Source: Candidatus Zixiibacteriota bacterium | GTDB lineage: Bacteria; RBG-13-66-14; B26-G2; WVWN01 | NCBI GenBank assembly: GCA_030613505.1 | Contig: JAUWLW010000005.1 | Location: 19,581-83,580, forward strand | DNA length: 64,000 bases | Reading direction: 5' to 3' | In this document: in pieces, positions 1,345 to 61,341 of the stretch | How the letters are laid out: the number at the start of each line of letters is the position of its first letter | How positions within the stretch are numbered: position 1 is the first letter of the stretch | Program-made: the position numbers and the translations under genes | Notes under the pieces: generated by a model | What the model saw: the letters and a program-made list of their open reading frames with translations, nothing else | Told to the model about the DNA's origin: nothing | Database searches by the model: none

Positions 1345-3870
1345 CTAGCCGCACCTCGTAAACCCGCAAGCCCGACACGTCAAACACCCCTCGGCGATTT
1401 CCAAAAGGCCGGAACACTCCGGGCATTGGGGGCCGACGTTGGCGAGCTCTTTCAACATCCGTTCCCGCCGCAGGGCTTCTACCTCTTCCATGGCGGGCCC
1501 GGCGTCGAAGAGCGGCGTCGTCTTGACACCCATATGACGTTCGACAACGATGCCGATAGCGTCGGGACAACTGAGTATAGCCTCACCGTTTTGCCACGTC
1601 GGCATCGGGCAACGAATCCCGCGAAGCTGTTTTATTATAGACTTGACGGTGACGCCGGCGCGAAGGGCCAGCGATATGAGCCGCGAGGACGCCTCGGAAT
1701 GGGACGAAATACAACCGCCCGATTTCCCCATTTTAGCGAAGACTTCGCACAGCCCATTATCGTCCCAGTTCAACGTAACGTAGAGGTTCCCGCAGCCGGT
1801 GGCGACTTTCTCGGTAATGCCGTAAGTAATGGCGGGCCTGGGCCTCGGCGCTACTCTTATTGGGAGCGGCGCGACGCCCGGCGCCGCGGCCCCCTCGGCC
1901 GTCGCCTCGCCCACGTTCAACACCTGCAACGAACGCGAGCCGTCGCGATATATGGTCACGCCTTTGCATCCCAGTTCGTAGGCCAATAAGTACGCCTTCT
2001 CTACGTCCTCCAACGTAGCCGACTTCGGGAAGTTAATGGTCTTGGAGACGGCGTTGTCGGTGTACTTCTGGAAGGCTGCCTGGATGCGAACGTGCCACTC
2101 CGGCGACACGTCGTGCGCGGTGACGAAAATCCGTTTTAACTCGTCCGGGACGTCTTCGCGTTTCTGGATGGATTCGCCGCGGGCGAGGCTCTCGAACAGG
2201 TCTTCGCCGGCGACCCCGCCGTTCTCGGCCGCCTTGGCGAAAAGGGGATTTACCTCCACGAGTTTGTCGTCGTCCAGGACGCGGCGGTAGAAGCACAACG
2301 CGAAAAAAGGCTCTATGCCGCCGCTCACGCCGACGATGATACTTATAGTGCCGGTGGGCGCCACGGTGGTAGTGGTGGCGTTGCGCAAGCGAGCGCCGCC
2401 CGGGCGGTCGTAAACGCTGCCACGGAAGTTCGGAAAGACGCCCCGCTCCTCCGAGAGCCGGGCCGACGCTCGCTTGGACTCGATGTCGACGAATTCCATT
2501 ACCTGGCAGGCGACGTCCTCCGCCTCCTCCGAATCGTACGGGATCCAAAGTTCTACGAGGAGGTCGGCGAAACCCATGACGCCCAAACCTATTTTCCTGT
2601 TGGCCTGGGTGTTCTGCTCTATCTCGGGGAGGGGGTAACGATTGACGTCGATTACGTTGTCCAGGAAGTGGACGGCGGCGTGGACCGTGCGGCCGAGCCG
2701 CTCCCAGTCGATTACCTTCCGGCCCTTTTCCTCCCGCACCATCAGGCCCAGGTTGACCGAACCCAGGTTGCACGACTCGTACGGCAGAAGCGGTTGCTCG
2801 CCGCACGGGTTGGTGGATTCGATCGTACCCACGTGCAGCGTGGGGTTGGCGGCGTTGACGCGGTCGATAAAAATTATACCCGGCTCGCCGTTGCCGTGGG
2901 CCATCTCGACGATTTTGTTGAAGACCCTGGCCGCCGGCAACCGGCCGGCCTCCTCGCCGGTTCGAGGATTGACTAGGGCGTACGTCTCCTCCGCGGTCAA
3001 GGCGGCCACGAACTCGTCCGTGAGCGCCACCGAGATGTTGAAATTATTGAGGTGATTCTCGTCGGCCTTACACGTGATGAACTCCATGATATCGGGATGG
3101 TCGACGCGCAGTATCCCCATGTTGGCGCCGCGCCGGGTACCGCCTTGCTTTATGGCCTCGGTCGCCGCGTCGAAGACCTGCATAAAGGAGATAGGCCCGC
3201 TCGAGATACCCTTGGTGGACATGACGACGTCGTTCTTGGGGCGGAGGCGGGAGAAGGAGAAGCCGGTACCCCCGCCGCTCTTGTGTATAAGCGCCGTGTC
3301 CTTTATGGCCTCGAAAATGGAATCCATCGAGTCCTCGACCGGCAGGACGAAGCACGCCGAGAGTTGACCCAGCTCGCGGCCGGCGTTCATAAGCGTGGGC
3401 GAATTAGGCATGAACTCGCTTCGCGCCATTATGCCGAAGAACTCGCGGGCCACGGGCTCGATGTCCGCCATGGGGTTGTAAATCCGTTCCGCCTCCGCCA
3501 CCGCCCACGCCACCCGCCAGAACATCTCGCGGGGCTCCTCTACCGGGTTCCCCTCCTCGTCGCGCCGCAAGTAGCGTCGCTTCAGAACCTCTAACGCGTT
3601 ATCGGACAGCTCCACGTCGGGCTCTTCCCACTCTTCGTCCTCCGCCGCCGGCACGTTGCGCTCCCACCCGGCTTCCGCTTCCTTGACTTTGGCCCTAACG
3701 ACGCCCTCCAAAACTTCGCCGCCGAAGTTGCCCAGGTCCTCGAGCTCGTCCAACGCTTCGATGATTATTCTTTCCGCTTGCGACCCGCGCACGCCCATCT
3801 CGTTCAACAACGCGCGCGCCTCCAGCCGCGCTCTGAAGCGCGCCGACTTCCGCCCTGCTCCTACCGCCAT
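1345..3870 (-). CDS. nrdJ: Vitamin B12-dependent (class II) ribonucleoside-diphosphate reductase
   Basis: 841 aa; [44 protein letters not shown]-terminal Zn-binding CPEC...[10 protein letters not shown]. Confidence 0.95.
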
Positions 3871-18663: not shown

Positions 18664-19704
18664 ATGAGGCTTATCGCGATAAAGACCCACGCCGCCGGGG
18701 ACCTCCTGCTGACAACGCCGGCCCTCCGCGCGCTGCGACGCGGCTTCCCGGAAGCCGACCTGGTCCTTTTGACGGGGCGAGCCAACGTCAACGTCGCCGG
18801 CGCGATCCCCGACGTGGACGCGTACATGTTCGTGGACGAGAAGGTCGCGTTCAAACCCAACCCCCTCACGACGTACCGGCTGGCCAAAGACGTTAAAAAC
18901 TCCGGAGCGGACGTAGCGTTTCTCTTCCAACCGTGGCCGGGGTTGGCGCGAATACTACATTTGGGAGGCGCAACCGTGTACGCACCGTTTGCCGAACGGA
19001 AACCGCCCAGATACCTGGCGGGCGGCGCACCTTGGCAACCGAACGCCGACAAATATATCGCCCAAAATTACGTCGAGGTGGCCGAAGCGGCGGGCTGTGC
19101 CCGCGACGACTTACGACTCGACTTCGTAATCCCGCACGGCGTCCCGACGGCGGCCGAAATCACCGGGATTAAAAAAAAGAAGAAGTACGTGGCGCTGGTG
19201 CCGTCGGGAGGGAGGAACCCGCGCGAAACCGTCGTCGCGAAAGTGCCGCCGGCGTACTTCTTCGTGGAGATCGCCGATTTTATCAAGAAAGAAACCGGCC
19301 GCCCCGTCGTGCTGGTGGGCGGACCGCACGACCGGGAGAGGTGCGCCGCCGTAGCCGCTAAAGCGGGTAACCCGAATGTCATAAACCTCGCCGGCAAAAC
19401 GGATATATTCGAAAGCGCCAGGGTAATCGACGGCGCGGCCTACTTAATAACCGTCGACTCGCTACCCCTACACGTTGGCGTTGCCCTGAAGAAGCCAACC
19501 CTCGGCCTCTTCGCTCCCACCAACCCGGACGCGCTCCTCCCCCGCGACGGACCCGCCGCGGCCGTCACCGCCGAATTGGAATGCGCCCCCTGCTACGCCA
19601 ACGCGCCCTCCCCTCGCTGCAAACGCCCTTTCAAGTACGAATGCCGCGAACGCATCCCGCTAGCGCCGGTCAAAGAATATATCTTGAAGCGCGAGAAAAA
19701 ATAA
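18664..19704 (+). CDS. Glycosyltransferase family 9 (heptosyltransferase-like)
   Basis: MRLIAIKTHAAGDLLLTTPALRALRRGFPEADLVLLTG, LVGGPHDRERC, NLAGKTD. Confidence 0.88.
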   Translation: MRLIAIKTHAAGDLLLTTPALRALRRGFPEADLVLLTGRANVNVAGAIPDVDAYMFVDEKVAFKPNPLTTYRLAKDVKNSGADVAFLFQPWPGLARILHLGGATVYAPFAERKPPRYLAGGAPWQPNADKYIAQNYVEVAEAAGCARDDLRLDFVIPHGVPTAAEITGIKKKKKYVALVPSGGRNPRETVVAKVPPAYFFVEIADFIKKETGRPVVLVGGPHDRERCAAVAAKAGNPNVINLAGKTDIFESARVIDGAAYLITVDSLPLHVGVALKKPTLGLFAPTNPDALLPRDGPAAAVTAELECAPCYANAPSPRCKRPFKYECRERIPLAPVKEYILKREKK

Positions 19705-40607: not shown

Positions 40608-40713
40608 CGTAGGGCCGTACCTTCAGGTGCGGCCGCCCCCTTGACAAGGGGCTTAAGCCCCTTGTCCAACGACGTTGAAAAAAGGTGGGCCGACCTAAAG
40701 GTCGTCCCCTACG
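40608..40713 (+). repeat. Paired REP (BIME-like) element, copy 1
   Basis: CGTAGGGCCGTACCTTCAGGTGCGG ... GGGCCGACCTAAAGGTCGTCCCCTACG; terminal GTAG/CTAC. Confidence 0.85.
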
Positions 40714-40806
40714 AAAGCACCCTATCCCCTGTTTCGCTTTCCGACGTTAAAAGGGTATCAGACTTCCACCGTTTTATGCCGCGCCGAGTGGCAGTTGGTT
40801 TTGACC
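40714..40806 (-). repeat. Duplicated 3' tail of the fumarase-alpha gene between two REP elements
   Basis: AAAGCACCCTATCCCC.GTTTCGC...TTAAAAGGGTATCAGAC...ATGCCGCGCCGAGTGGCAGTTG shared with about 40922..41016. Confidence 0.85.
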
Positions 40807-40812
40807 GTATTT

Positions 40813-40921
40813 CGTAGGGCCGTACCTTTAGGTGCGGCCACCAATACAATATAATATGTCCGGACGCTTCTAGGGACCGCCGTGTAAATACGGTGGGCCG
40901 ACCTAAAGGTCGTCCCCTACG
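40813..40921 (+). repeat. Paired REP (BIME-like) element, copy 2
   Basis: CGTAGGGCCGTACCTTTAGGTGCGGCCACC...GGTGGGCCGACCTAAAGGTCGTCCCCTACG. Confidence 0.87.
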
Positions 40922-40971
40922 AAAGCACCCTATCCCCCGTTTCGCTTCCGCCTTCCGAGGTTAAAAGGGTA

Positions 40972-41814
40972 TCAGACCTCGACCGTCTTATGCCGCGCCG
41001 AGTGGCAGTTGATGTTGACGGCGCACGGGAAGGAGGCGATGTGGCGACCGAAGGACTCGACGTGGACCGCCAGCGCCGTCGTCGAGCCGCCGTAGCCCAT
41101 CGGCCCGATGCCGAGCTTGTTGACGCGCTCCAGGAGTTCCTTCTCGAGCTCCGCGTTCCAGGGGTCCTCCGCCGGCCGGCCCAGCGGCCTGAAGAGCGCC
41201 TTCTTCGCCAGGAACGCGCAGTGTTCGAACGTCCCGCCGATGCCGACGCCGACGACGATGGGCGGGCACGGGTTGGGCCCCGCCTCGCGCACCGCCTCCA
41301 CGACGAAGTCGATTATGCCGTCGCGGCCGTCCGCGGGCTTCATCATCTTGATGCGGCTCATGTTCTCGGAACCGCCGCCCTTGGGGGCGAGGTGGATGAC
41401 GAGCTCGTCGCCCTTCGTCGAGATTATGTGGATTATGGAGGGCGTGTTGTCGCCGGTATTCTTGCCGACGACGGGGTGGACGACGATGGACTTGCGGAGG
41501 TAGCCCTCGTCGTACCCGCGGCGCGTACCCTCGTCGATGGCGTCGCGCAGCGAGCCGCCCGTAACGTGGACGTCGTTGCCGAGCTCTACGACGTAGACGG
41601 CGAAGCCGCAATCCTGGCACAGCGGGTACTCTCCCTGGGCCGCTATTTCGGCGTTCTCCAAAAGCGACGACAGGATCTGCTTTCCTACCGGCGACTCCTC
41701 CTTCTCGCGGGAATCCTTGAGCGCCTGGACCGTATCGGCGGGCAGATTATACCCGGCGTCGATGCACAAATCTTTGACCTTCTCGGCGATCTTGTCAACG
41801 GTAATCTCGCGCAT
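40972..41814 (-). CDS. Class I fumarate hydratase, alpha subunit / N-terminal domain
   Basis: PLCQDCGFAVYVVELG, APKGGGSENMSRIKMM, GVGIGGTFEHCAFLAKKAL, GPMGYGGSTTALAVHVE. Confidence 0.92.
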   Translation of the reverse strand: MREITVDKIAEKVKDLCIDAGYNLPADTVQALKDSREKEESPVGKQILSSLLENAEIAAQGEYPLCQDCGFAVYVVELGNDVHVTGGSLRDAIDEGTRRGYDEGYLRKSIVVHPVVGKNTGDNTPSIIHIISTKGDELVIHLAPKGGGSENMSRIKMMKPADGRDGIIDFVVEAVREAGPNPCPPIVVGVGIGGTFEHCAFLAKKALFRPLGRPAEDPWNAELEKELLERVNKLGIGPMGYGGSTTALAVHVESFGRHIASFPCAVNINCHSARHKTVEV

Positions 41815-44830: not shown

Positions 44831-46666
44831 ATGGATTGCACGATACACCCCGGCCAAGAAATCAAAGGCGTTTGCGTTAGTTGTAAAACGCATATATGCG
44901 ACTTATGCGAGTTCGAAATACAAGGCAAGTCGTATTGTAAAAAATGCGCAACGGTACTCATGGAGGGCATCGACGCTAAACTAAAGTTAGAAATACCGGA
45001 AGTAGTTAAATGCGAAATATGCGGTAAGTCGAGGTATCCGGGACAGCAATTCTACTTATGTAGTAATTGCGGCGTTGTAACGTGCCCGGAACATTGGTAC
45101 GAAGGAATAAAACTCTGCGAGAAATGCTACGATAAAACCGTTGAGGAAGAAATCTTTAATTTAAAAAACGAGGGGTTAGTTAGGACCTGCCCCAATTGTG
45201 GAACCGAGAATAAGCTAACGGCGGAAAAGTGTAGAAATCGTAATTGTAAAGCCGCTTTACCTAAACTTAAAAACGCCGAGGAAATAAGGAAACGAAACGT
45301 ACCCTGTTCGAAACACCCGGAAAAGCCGGCCTACGTCCAATGCGCGAGTTGCGGCAAATACCTGTGCCTTGATTGTGAAAATACGCATAAGAACGAGCAT
45401 TATTGCCACGATTGTTTAAACGAAATAAAAGCTAAGGAGGCAGAGATAAGGAATAAGAGGTTAAAGATCGGCGTGATAGTAACCGCTATCATAGCTGGGG
45501 TTTTAGGTATTAGTATGGGCGTTTGTATAATATTCGGCGCTATTTTGACTCACCGGGAGAACGTTGAAACTTACGAATCCGCGGAAGTAGACTTCAATGC
45601 TGGCAAGTACGACGAGGCAATAGAAAAATATTCGGCCCTCGGAGATTTCAAAGAATCAGAAAAAAAGTTAGAGGAAGTTAGAAATGCCGCGTACGAAAAA
45701 GAGTTCAATTTCGCTAAAGAAGCCGAGGAAAAAGGCGAACTAGAAAATGCTTTAAACTATTACGAAAAAGCGGGTACTTACAGGGATTCTAAAAAGGAAA
45801 TAACGAGGATAAATGTCCTTATAGTTAAAGAGTACGAGGAAAAAGGCGAACTAGAAAATGCTTTAAGCCATTACGAAAAAGCAGATACTCACGGGGAATT
45901 TAAAAAGGACATCGCAAGGGTAACCGTACTCATAGGTAAAGAGTATTTAGAATCCAAAGAATATGAAAAAGCGTCAACGTACTTAGAAAAAGCGAATGAA
46001 ATAAATAAACTTACCGGCGAAGATTTGAAAAATCTCCGTTATTGCCGCGCTTGGCCAAAAAACGAGAAGGCCGAGGTTGCTTTGCGCGAAGCTAACGAAA
46101 TCCTTAATTCCTTTAAATACGCTAAAGCAAAAGAAGATACTGCTGAATACGAGAAACTACGAACGGCATCATTAAAAGCTAATGATGCTGTTAAAAATTT
46201 CGAAGAAGCATACGAGTTATACGCGGAATTCCCCGGCCTTAAAACGAGATTAGACGCTTCAAAGAAAAAACGGGATTCGATTAATAAAACCCTCACGAAA
46301 TTGGAAAAAGAAAGGGCCGAAATAAAACAACGAATCGAGAAGGAACGCGCAGAATTAGAAAGTATGAAGGCTAACCCGGTAGCGTACGTAAAACTAATCA
46401 AACAAAGCTGGTATTTAGGAGGGTTCGGAAGGATAGGCATACATAAAGTAACCATAAGAAATAACAACAAGTTTACTATAAAAAATATCGGTCTCATGTT
46501 TACTTATTATTCAGGGGGTCGCGATAAGTGTGGTTTGGCTACTTACGTTATTAAAGATAAAATTCCGGCAAATTCATCGAAAACCTTCCGTGAAATTAAT
46601 ACGGGTTTTATAGACTCCCAAGCTAAGGGTTGCAACGCGGAAATATTATCCGCCGAAATCTACTAA
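44831..46666 (+). CDS. B-box-like Zn-finger / TM / TPR-like repeat protein
   Basis: CTIHPGQEIKGVCVSCKTHICDLCEFEIQGKSYCKKCA and CSKHPEKPAYVQCASCGKYLCLDCENTHKNEHYCHDC; TM VIVTAIIAGVLGISMGVCIIFGAIL; repeats. Confidence 0.7.
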   Translation: MDCTIHPGQEIKGVCVSCKTHICDLCEFEIQGKSYCKKCATVLMEGIDAKLKLEIPEVVKCEICGKSRYPGQQFYLCSNCGVVTCPEHWYEGIKLCEKCYDKTVEEEIFNLKNEGLVRTCPNCGTENKLTAEKCRNRNCKAALPKLKNAEEIRKRNVPCSKHPEKPAYVQCASCGKYLCLDCENTHKNEHYCHDCLNEIKAKEAEIRNKRLKIGVIVTAIIAGVLGISMGVCIIFGAILTHRENVETYESAEVDFNAGKYDEAIEKYSALGDFKESEKKLEEVRNAAYEKEFNFAKEAEEKGELENALNYYEKAGTYRDSKKEITRINVLIVKEYEEKGELENALSHYEKADTHGEFKKDIARVTVLIGKEYLESKEYEKASTYLEKANEINKLTGEDLKNLRYCRAWPKNEKAEVALREANEILNSFKYAKAKEDTAEYEKLRTASLKANDAVKNFEEAYELYAEFPGLKTRLDASKKKRDSINKTLTKLEKERAEIKQRIEKERAELESMKANPVAYVKLIKQSWYLGGFGRIGIHKVTIRNNNKFTIKNIGLMFTYYSGGRDKCGLATYVIKDKIPANSSKTFREINTGFIDSQAKGCNAEILSAEIY

Positions 46667-58856: not shown

Positions 58857-59558
58857 ATGGCTCGCAACGATCACGAATGCCGCGACTGGAAGGGCGACCT
58901 CACGAAGCTGCTGGAGGAGGTGGCGGCCGCGGCGGCCGAGGGCAACGTCCCCCGCGACCTCCGGAAGAGGTTCCGCGCCATCTGGCGGGAGGCGAGGCGG
59001 TGCGAGGAGGCGCGGGAGGCGACGCGGTACACCGAGCGCGGGAGCGCCTACACGCGGCGCCGCCTCATAGCCGCGGACCGGCAGCAGGCGGCGCGCCGCC
59101 TCTACCCCGAGCAGCTGCTCTACCGCCGCGTCAGCGACCGCCTCAACCGCCGGTGGGGGGCGTGGGCGGCGGAGTACCTCGTGTGGCTGGTGGCGGGGCA
59201 CGGCCAATCGGCCTCCGGCCTGGCGCGCCTCTTCGTCTTCATCGTCGTCGTCGTGCTGGGGGGCTTCGCGCTGCTGTATCGCTACCCGGAGCCCGGCGTC
59301 GAGTACCAGCTCGACGACCGCGAGCTAAGCTGGTACCACTACGTCTACTTCAGCGGCAATACGCTGACGACGCTCGGCTTCGGCGACATCCTTCCCAAGG
59401 AGGACCGCCCGGACGTGATGTTCTTAGTCGTCGCGGAGGGGATAATCGGCTACGTCCTGCTGGGGACGTTCATCTTCGCCGTCGTCTCGTATCGCCGCCG
59501 GCCGCCGCCGCCCGAGGACGACTGGGAGGCGAAGCTGTTCGCGAGGCTAAGGCCGTAA
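58857..59558 (+). CDS. Two-TM potassium channel-like protein
   Basis: YHYVYFSGNTLTTLGFGDILPKEDRPDVMFLVVAEGIIGYVLLGTFIFAVVSY (TxGFGD selectivity filter). Confidence 0.8.
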   Translation: MARNDHECRDWKGDLTKLLEEVAAAAAEGNVPRDLRKRFRAIWREARRCEEAREATRYTERGSAYTRRRLIAADRQQAARRLYPEQLLYRRVSDRLNRRWGAWAAEYLVWLVAGHGQSASGLARLFVFIVVVVLGGFALLYRYPEPGVEYQLDDRELSWYHYVYFSGNTLTTLGFGDILPKEDRPDVMFLVVAEGIIGYVLLGTFIFAVVSYRRRPPPPEDDWEAKLFARLRP

Positions 59559-59560
59559 GG

Positions 59561-60222
59561 CGTAGGGCCGTACCTTCAGGTGCGGCCACCGATAAAATAA
59601 AAATATGTGCCCCGGCATTTTAGAGTATAGCTAATTAAAACATGACCAGCCCACGAGGCCCAAAATACGGAACACGGCGCGCCTCCCCCCGGCTATCGGG
59701 GTTCGAATACCGCGGGCCGTATCGGTATTTCATAACGTTAACGGCGTATATGGAAAAGCCTTTTTTCGCGGACCAGTGGACGGTCACAGAAACCATCCGG
59801 GCCCTTTCCGAAACCGCCGGCGGATACAGCTTCGACGTACTCTGTTATTGTTTCATGCCTGAACACGCCCACCTCCTCCTTGAAGGGGGCGCTACGAGCA
59901 ACCTCCGCGAGTTCGTCCGCATATTCAAACAGAAGAGTTCTTACCGGTATAAACGCTCGGCGGGAAAGCCGTTGTGGCAGCGGGGTTACTACGACCGCAT
60001 ACTCCGCGAAGCCGAAGACTCTTTAGCCGTCGCGCGGTACATTTTAGCTAATCCGGCCCGCCGCGGTTTAACGGATGACGCGGCCTCTTATCCATACTCC
60101 GGATCGTTCGTATGTTCGGTGCCGGACATATTGTACTCGGTTTTGGTATGCAACAAGTAGGACCGTACCTCCAACCGCACCCACTAAAAAGCGGCGGCCA
60201 GACCTAAAGGTCAGGCCCTACG
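59561..60222 (+). mobile_element. RAYT-bearing composite element with REP ends
   Basis: Left REP CGTAGGGCCGTACCTTCAGGTGCGG, Y1 transposase ORF, right REP GGCCAGACCTAAAGGTCAGGCCCTACG. Confidence 0.82.
59642..60160 (+). CDS. REP-associated tyrosine transposase (Y1/HUH, RAYT)
   Basis: YFITLTAYMEKPFF, CFMPEHAHLLLEGG (HUH-type), FKQKSSYRYKRSAGKPLWQRGYYDRILREAEDSLAVARYILANPARRGL. Confidence 0.9.
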   Translation: MTSPRGPKYGTRRASPRLSGFEYRGPYRYFITLTAYMEKPFFADQWTVTETIRALSETAGGYSFDVLCYCFMPEHAHLLLEGGATSNLREFVRIFKQKSSYRYKRSAGKPLWQRGYYDRILREAEDSLAVARYILANPARRGLTDDAASYPYSGSFVCSVPDILYSVLVCNK

Positions 60223-60230
60223 AAAACGTA

Positions 60231-60291
60231 GGCCGCCGCCGCTCGAGGACGACAGGGAGGAGAAGCTGTTCGCGAGGTTAAGGCCGTAAGG
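60231..60291 (+). repeat. Duplicate of the 3' end of the channel gene (copy 2)
   Basis: GGCCGCCGCCGCTCGAGGACGACAGGGAGGAGAAGCTGTTCGCGAGGTTAAGGCCGTAAGG vs 59500-59560. Confidence 0.88.
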
Positions 60292-60376
60292 CGTAGGGCC
60301 GTACCTTCAGGTGCGGCCACCGAAATCATTTATTAATATGATAAGCGGCGGCCAGACCTAAAGGTCAGGCCCTACG
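60292..60376 (+). repeat. Paired REP element
   Basis: CGTAGGGCCGTACCTTCAGGTGCGGCCACCGAAATCATTTATTAATATGATAAGCGGCGGCCAGACCTAAAGGTCAGGCCCTACG. Confidence 0.88.
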
Positions 60377-60380
60377 AAAA

Positions 60381-60442
60381 CGCCGGCCGCCGCCGCCCGA
60401 GGACGACTGGGAGGAGAAGCTGTTCGAGAGGCTGAGGCCTTA
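60381..60442 (+). repeat. Duplicate of the 3' end of the channel gene (copy 3)
   Basis: CGCCGGCCGCCGCCGCCCGAGGACGACTGGGAGGAGAAGCTGTTCGAGAGGCTGAGGCCTTAG. Confidence 0.88.
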
Positions 60443-60468
60443 GCGGCCGGAACCGCCGCTCGGGAATT

Positions 60469-60873
60469 ATGGGGACAAAACTGCTCTGTATAGGACTGTC
60501 GGCCCTGGCCTTCGCGGCCGGGGCATTTGCGCGCGACGCGCCGTTCCATAAATTAACGCTATACGTCGCAAACCAGAGCTTCAACGTCAACCCGGTCGAC
60601 GTCAAGGTCACCATAGACGGCGTGAAGGTGGCGGAGGGGACCTTCTTCGCCGGCTACGGCCGCAGCTGGCGGCGGTACGACGTGCGGCTCGCCGCGGGGC
60701 GCCACGTCCTCCGGGCGCTGACGCGCAAGGGCGCCGCGGCCTTGAAGCGCGAGTTCACGGTAACCGGGCCGCGCTGGGTCGCGGTGGCGTACCGCAACCG
60801 CATGCCCTCCTACGGCACCAGCGCCGTGCGCCACTTCGCCTTCGCGATAAGGGATAGGCCGTTTGGGGAATAA
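60469..60873 (+). CDS. Secreted protein, unknown (paralogue of 62886..63260)
   Basis: Signal peptide; KLTLYVANQSFNVNPVDVKVTIDGVKVAEGTF. Confidence 0.65.
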   Translation: MGTKLLCIGLSALAFAAGAFARDAPFHKLTLYVANQSFNVNPVDVKVTIDGVKVAEGTFFAGYGRSWRRYDVRLAAGRHVLRALTRKGAAALKREFTVTGPRWVAVAYRNRMPSYGTSAVRHFAFAIRDRPFGE

Positions 60874-60875
60874 AA

Positions 60876-60960
60876 CGTAGGGCCGTACCTTCAGGTGCGG
60901 CCACCAAAATCATTTATTAATATGATAAGCGGCGGCCAGACCTAAAGGTCAGGCCCTACG
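60876..60960 (+). repeat. Paired REP element (A-type core)
   Basis: Near-identical to 60292..60376. Confidence 0.88.
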
Positions 60961-60968
60961 GAAACCCG

Positions 60969-61023
60969 GCGCCGTGCGCCACTTCGCCTTCGCGATCAGG
61001 GATAGGCCGTTTGGTAAGTAACA
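60969..61023 (+). repeat. Duplicate of the 3' end of gene 60469..60873 (copy 2)
   Basis: GGCGCCGTGCGCCACTTCGCCTTCGCGATCAGGGATAGGCCGTTTGGTAAGTAA. Confidence 0.9.
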
Positions 61024-61134
61024 CGTAGGGCCGTACCTTTAGGTCCGGCCACCGATAAAAACAAAATATGTCCGGCCGTTCTTAGGCACGGTCACGAAAA
61101 GCAAGGTGGGCCGACCTAAAGGTCGTCCCCTACG
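61024..61134 (+). repeat. Paired REP element (B-type core)
   Basis: CGTAGGGCCGTACCTTTAGGTCCGGCCACCGATAAAAACAAAATATGTCCGG...GGTGGGCCGACCTAAAGGTCGTCCCCTACG. Confidence 0.87.
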
Positions 61135-61142
61135 AAAACGCC

Positions 61143-61196
61143 GGGCCGTGCGCCACTTCGCCTTCGCGATTAGGGATAGGCCGTTTGGTAAGTAAA
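61143..61196 (+). repeat. Duplicate of the 3' end of gene 60469..60873 (copy 3)
   Basis: GGGCCGTGCGCCACTTCGCCTTCGCGATTAGGGATAGGCCGTTTGGTAAGTAAA. Confidence 0.9.
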
Positions 61197-61281
61197 CGTA
61201 GGGCCATACCTTCAGGTGCGGCCACCAAAATCATTTATTAATATGATAAGCGGCGGCCAGACCTAAAGGTCAGGCCCTACG
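61197..61281 (+). repeat. Paired REP element (A-type core)
   Basis: CGTAGGGCCATACCTTCAGGTGCGGCCACCAAAATCATTTATTAATATGATAAGCGGCGGCCAGACCTAAAGGTCAGGCCCTACG. Confidence 0.88.
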
Positions 61282-61287
61282 AAACCC

Positions 61288-61341
61288 GGCGCCGTGCGCC
61301 ACTTCGCCTTCGCGATTCGGGATAGGCCGTTTGGGGAGTAG
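61288..61341 (+). repeat. Duplicate of the 3' end of gene 60469..60873 (copy 4)
   Basis: GGCGCCGTGCGCCACTTCGCCTTCGCGATTCGGGATAGGCCGTTTGGGGAGTAG. Confidence 0.9.

Follow-up and report, generated by a model that had tools for sequence, protein, structure and literature searches.

We analyzed a 64,000-bp stretch of a Candidatus Zixiibacteriota genome (GenBank assembly GCA_030613505.1, contig JAUWLW010000005.1, forward strand positions 19,581 to 83,580; hereafter the window) and found that elements built from inverted pairs of repetitive extragenic palindromic (REP) sequences, known as REPINs (REP doublets forming hairpins), lie there between repeated copies of the 3' end, or tail, of the gene in front of them. 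One of the elements carries a gene for a REP-associated tyrosine transposase (RAYT). The same tail-element-tail pattern was detected behind ten unrelated genes in the source genome (G000) and three congeners (G001, G002 and G003), namely a channel gene, gene 60469, and genes of the fumarase, dehydratase-like, C79, 3-hydroxyacyl-CoA dehydrogenase, PQQ-type, carB, DUF35-type and X loci; names other than channel and RAYT come from reading the sequences rather than from family searches. We propose, with a probability of about 0.6, that insertion of these REPIN-family elements was accompanied by a long and variable duplication of the adjacent target DNA.

REPIN arrays in the window

Two arrays were found at 59.5-61.3 kb, both on the forward strand. 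The first lies 3' of an Ion_trans_2 channel gene (58857..59558; PF07885, E=1.4e-9), whose end resembles that of its G001 ortholog. Tail copy 1, within the gene (59496..59560), is followed by a 662-bp autonomous element with the RAYT gene (59561..60222), tail copy 2 (60223..60291, of which 60223-60230 are probably the element end AAAAC plus the junction), an 85-bp REPIN, E2 (60292..60376), and tail copy 3 (60377..60442). Repeat alignment indicated that the tail at 59496-59557 recurs at 60231-60291 and 60381-60442 with 93-94% identity. The second array lies behind gene 60469..60873, an open reading frame of unknown function with orthologs in G002 and G003 and no Pfam match. Its four tail copies (60818..60875, within the gene; 60961..61023; 61135..61196; 61282..61340) alternate with three elements, E3 (60876..60960, 85 bp), E4 (61024..61134, 111 bp) and E5 (61197..61281, 85 bp). 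A first-pass annotation, made from the letters of the window alone, had reported the recurrence of the channel tail after the RAYT element and after the next REP, and three further copies of the gene-60469 tail; both observations were confirmed, with coordinates good to a few bases. The direct repeats flanking the five elements scored 88-102, while the maximum in shuffled sequence was 21-27; for the tails around the RAYT element the score was 102 against a null of 27.

The spacers between tails had been described as REPs. REPs are indeed present, but each spacer consists of two GTAG-type REPs in inverted orientation (85-111 bp in the short forms) rather than a single REP, and the RAYT element has similar ends. 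The spacers thus have the features of REPINs, with palindromic GTAG-tagged REPs in inverted pairs that are repeated in the genome, and four of them are predicted to fold as a single hairpin in single-stranded DNA (z -4.8 to -6.3; -6.25 for E2). The two REP types noted earlier were also recovered: E3 and E5 are 99% identical, while E4 is only 53-54% identical to them. E4 is 83% identical to an element at 40813-40921. E2, E3 and E5 share 98-99% identity (99% for E2 and E3) yet stand behind two different genes; therefore the element, and not the tail, is the unit repeated between loci.

The RAYT gene (59642..60160) is intact and encodes 172 amino acids with the HxH motif (H75, H77) and Y117 identified by alignment. 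The protein matched the curated NCBIfam model NF047646 (REP_Tyr_transpos) with 94.5 bits (cut-off 80) as well as PF01797, while its score against the IS200/IS605 model NF033573 was 27.6 bits, below the cut-off of 55; a weak match to TnpArep (PDB 4er8) was also found. The REPs on either side of the gene (59561-59590 and 60193-60222) are inverted and resemble those scattered in the genome. The HxH and tyrosine residues are kept in the copies from G003 (85% identical) and G001 (52% identical). The three RAYT elements whose two flanks are intact in the assemblies (window 59561, G003 contig C120 and G001 contig C49) all lie between tail copies, with scores of 102, 100 and 90 (null 25-29). G002 gave no RAYT match and only one exact REP match. 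At the G001 RAYT locus, the end that is duplicated (..PTSLGRVKALFR; L194 1316-1392 and 2066-2142) belongs to a C-terminal motif with dozens of occurrences in the genus, in all four genomes.

A further, independent array was found at 40608-41019, on the reverse strand behind a fumarate hydratase-type gene. It consists of tail copy 1 within the gene (40922..41019, stop codon at 40972-40974), a REPIN (40813..40921; flanking repeat score 133 against a null of 24), tail copy 2 (40714..40812) and a second REPIN (40608..40713), both elements being located by the REP scan. Elsewhere in the window, a 111-bp tandem repeat of in-frame length is present in two copies at 45724-45945 and has no link to REPs.

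Flanking repeats at other loci and at orthologous sites

We located doublets with a position matrix made from REPs alone, in which the tails played no part, and scored flank repeats by aligning one flank against the other; self-BLAST hid the direct repeats, probably by dropping high-scoring segment pairs inside the full self-match. Flanking direct repeats scored at least 34 at 15 of the 20 intact doublets with usable flanks, and at least 45 at 12 of them. Among 3000 random window positions, four scored at least 36 and one at least 40. The expectation that most REP copies in the genome would be flanked by tails therefore held for intact doublets (15/20), but decayed single REPs were mostly without flanking repeats. 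The lower scores in G003 (contigs C25, C29 and C100) reflect terminators or short repeats and not coding tails.

In the rest of G000 the pattern was found on contig C4, behind the dehydratase-like gene, and on contig C79, where two elements that are 83% identical alternate with three tails that include the terminator. G003 carries it behind the 3-hydroxyacyl-CoA dehydrogenase, carB and DUF35-type genes, with the fumarase case displaced, and G001 behind the PQQ-type gene and gene X. At the G003 dehydrogenase, the G001 PQQ-type gene and the G003 DUF35-type gene a single element stands between two tails, and at most loci the tails outnumber the elements by one. The duplicated target varies in length from 25 to 150 bp. 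The stop codon usually lies within it, as does the terminator at some loci, so that the gene retains an intact end. The two tails of the DUF35 locus differ only synonymously in their coding part, and tail differences at the other loci are a mixture of synonymous and amino-acid-changing ones. Old REPs or GTAG hairpins follow several orphan tails.

Tail copies were confined to the locus of their own gene in the four genomes, with the exception of a C4 copy and displaced copies in G003. The former, from the dehydratase-like gene, lies beside a REP (L039 1431-1480; C4 at about 3230-3280) about 2.7 kb away from the main array, from which it is separated by an antitoxin-like gene, two paired ABC transporter genes and one more gene. 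A search around the orthologs in G003 and G001 did not recover these ABC genes. On G003 contig C32 (L084 1223-1427), decayed gene-60469 tails lie upstream of the ortholog of that gene, ahead of a RAYT element. Additional palindromic families are common behind genes (L110, L119, L127 and elsewhere), including hairpins of the GTAGGGGCGACTGGCCAGTCGCCCCTAC type and GACAAGGGGCTTAAGCCCCTTGTC, which occurs within some REPINs as well.

To compare orthologous sites, the last 90 bp of each gene were aligned to the 900 bp downstream, and the variant-REP sites at C79 in G000 and DUF35 in G003 were counted as element-bearing. A downstream tail copy was present at 10 of 12 element-bearing sites and at none of the 13 sites without an intact element; the loci had been picked for showing duplication, and the informative part is that element-free sites were always single-tailed. 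Two of the 13, gene 60469 in G002 and the channel gene in G001, keep decayed traces of REPs. The clearest pairs were the dehydrogenase locus (G003 versus G000 and G001) and the DUF35 locus in the same genomes, where the downstream gene is also shared. Element and duplication are thus present or absent together between species. Taken with the ten unrelated genes and the one-element-two-tails loci, the single tails at these relatives' gene ends support the earlier suggestion that each REP insertion duplicated the gene end.

Origin of the duplicated tails

A long target duplication made at insertion explains the loci with one element and two tails, the surplus of one tail over elements and the single tail at empty sites, and we favor it over later tandem duplication. 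RAYT-linked REPINs would insert mostly directly behind genes, often next to an older REP or a hairpin terminator, and each insertion would duplicate about 25-150 bp of target to give tail-element-tail. RAYT may nick the DNA beside a REP or hairpin that is already there; single-stranded element DNA may then be joined to the 3' end freed on the gene side; and the 3' end of the element itself (..CCCTACGAAAAC) could re-prime farther upstream within the gene end, where a few bases match, and recopy the tail. Arrays would grow through later rounds of insertion, through unequal exchange among the tail copies, and as elements are converted or replaced. The old REPs or hairpins after tails and the few matching bases at junctions (AC, ACC or TAC at some tail starts, read by eye) offer slight backing for these steps. 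That RAYT transposition itself makes the duplications, with the element joined to the nicked gene-side strand, re-priming upstream and the gene end regenerated, is a tentative proposal to which we give less than even odds. The distal copies retain ancestral bases, channel copy 3 matching G001 and gene-60469 copy 4 matching the G002 ortholog, suggesting that in the channel array the newer events may lie nearer the gene.

Several observations weigh against the proposed insertion-coupled duplication. Tails within arrays are 8-12% diverged while E2, E3 and E5 differ by 1-2%, so the elements now in place seem younger than the duplicated tails, or have undergone conversion. For fumarase and gene 60469, the duplication seems to be common to G000 and G003, predating their split, and these are therefore not fresh insertions. 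From these two points we conclude that the elements in old slots were replaced, converted or locally copied. The first-pass annotation had judged a single tandem duplication insufficient; this stands for the mixed element types, but given the divergence of the tails and the similarity of the three elements, unequal exchange or gene conversion probably contributed too. A fourth RAYT element, on G003 C32, lacked a symmetric flanking repeat, its decayed gene-60469 tails being confined to the left side, and no symmetric flanking repeat was found for the doublets at 40608, L046:1359 and L085:4475. REP remnants after some orphan tails (C4; G003 C120) are also expected if tail and element were duplicated in tandem. 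Finally, transposition was not observed.

Elements could instead have inserted without a long duplication, the tail-plus-element units being duplicated in tandem later by replication slippage or recombination at REP hairpins, with decay or deletion of the distal elements. We regard this as rather unlikely, although besides the remnants it is favored by the 83% identity of the C79 elements within one array, by the decayed REPs without duplication at the same gene ends in G002 and G001, and by published REPIN clusters in which flanking DNA is repeated with the REPINs (PMC3116915, PMC3733652). It would, however, demand loss of the distal element at every one-element-two-tails site; adjacent elements of one array can differ in type; and Chloroflexi REPINs (0/9) and most E. 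coli clusters are without flanking duplication. The alternative raised earlier, that gene tail plus REP moves as one piece, is very improbable. The displaced C4 copy with other genes in between and the decayed tails upstream of gene 60469 in G003 would fit it, but both are explicable by gene insertion into, or recombination between, REP arrays. The nearly identical E2 and E3 carry different tails, and we rejected this unit because a search of the four genomes turned up no tail copy at an unrelated locus.

The synonymous-only differences at DUF35 led us to consider that an orphan tail is the end of a foreign ortholog imported with the element, as with elements that integrate at tRNA 3' ends. 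The mixed differences at the other loci did not support this; moreover, distal copies keep ortholog-shared bases as old local duplicates would, and short REPINs have no integrase. We regard this reading as very improbable. An artefact of the metagenome-assembled genome is scarcely credible: the assembly is fragmented, with REPs at the ends of some contigs, but each tail copy has its own substitutions, and the pattern occurs in three separately assembled genomes, with many loci inside contigs.

Relation to known REPIN systems

The arrays resemble described REPIN/RAYT systems (Nunvar 2010, PMC2817692; Bertels and Rainey 2011, PMC3116915) in their GTAG-tagged inverted palindrome pairs near gene ends, in the RAYT gene between REPs of the same type, and in the REPIN-poor genome without RAYT (here G002). 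They differ in that target direct repeats of 25-150 bp flank most intact doublets; we found no report in the open-access literature of a long target duplication as a signature of REPIN insertion. Ordered tandem REPIN clusters with flanking DNA were described in P. fluorescens SBW25 (PMC3116915), and reiteration of GTAG REP clusters together with flanking DNA has been reported (PMC3733652). As in those clusters, the repeat units here hold flanking sequence and REPINs; unlike them, single elements between two tails, mixed types within an array and single tails at orthologous sites also occur. Near-identical tandem units with flank partly fit C79 and the elements at 60876 and 61197, but not the single-element loci or the mixed arrays. 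The Y1 HUH transposase superfamily and hairpin ends are shared with IS200/IS605, which transposes as single strands and is described as having neither terminal inverted repeats nor larger target duplications (PMC2817692); the duplications here are long and variable, and probably originated at insertion. The likeness to tRNA-3'-end elements is only an analogy, with no tyrosine recombinase, no fixed attachment site and many unrelated protein-gene targets in our case. What the two have in common is that the host gene retains a complete 3' end after insertion.

Flanking direct repeats were found at 0 of 9 REPIN pairs in two Chloroflexi genomes. A 250-kb portion of E. coli K-12 held 13 REP clusters, of which one array matched its own REPs and one bacterial interspersed mosaic element (BIME) lay between two terminator-like repeats. 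The latter, behind pitA (L202 39157-39360), has a copy of a terminator-like hairpin (CGAGCGGGTCAG..CTGGCCCGCTT) on each side and is a possible small-scale parallel in E. coli. No comparable doublets were obtained at most loci of remote RAYT homologs; at five, the gene is instead bracketed by REPINs in direct repeat. At these loci, from Chloroflexi, Peptoniphilus and Planctomycetota (L140, L141, L142, L145 and L146), the RAYT-like gene has a direct repeat of about 100-210 bp on either side and not inverted single REPs, and the repeats resemble whole REPINs at 4 of the 5. The trait is therefore a variant within REPIN/RAYT systems, neither a general property of them nor a new kind of element.

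A 2021 study called the mechanism of REPIN dissemination unresolved (PMC8266576), and insertion footprints are among the few traces of how REPINs move. A lineage in which long target repeats surround the intact elements and all three RAYT copies open to the test offers a concrete, testable footprint. The long repeats suggest that DNA is synthesized during insertion, and they would provide one way for an element to enter dense coding DNA while leaving the gene unbroken.
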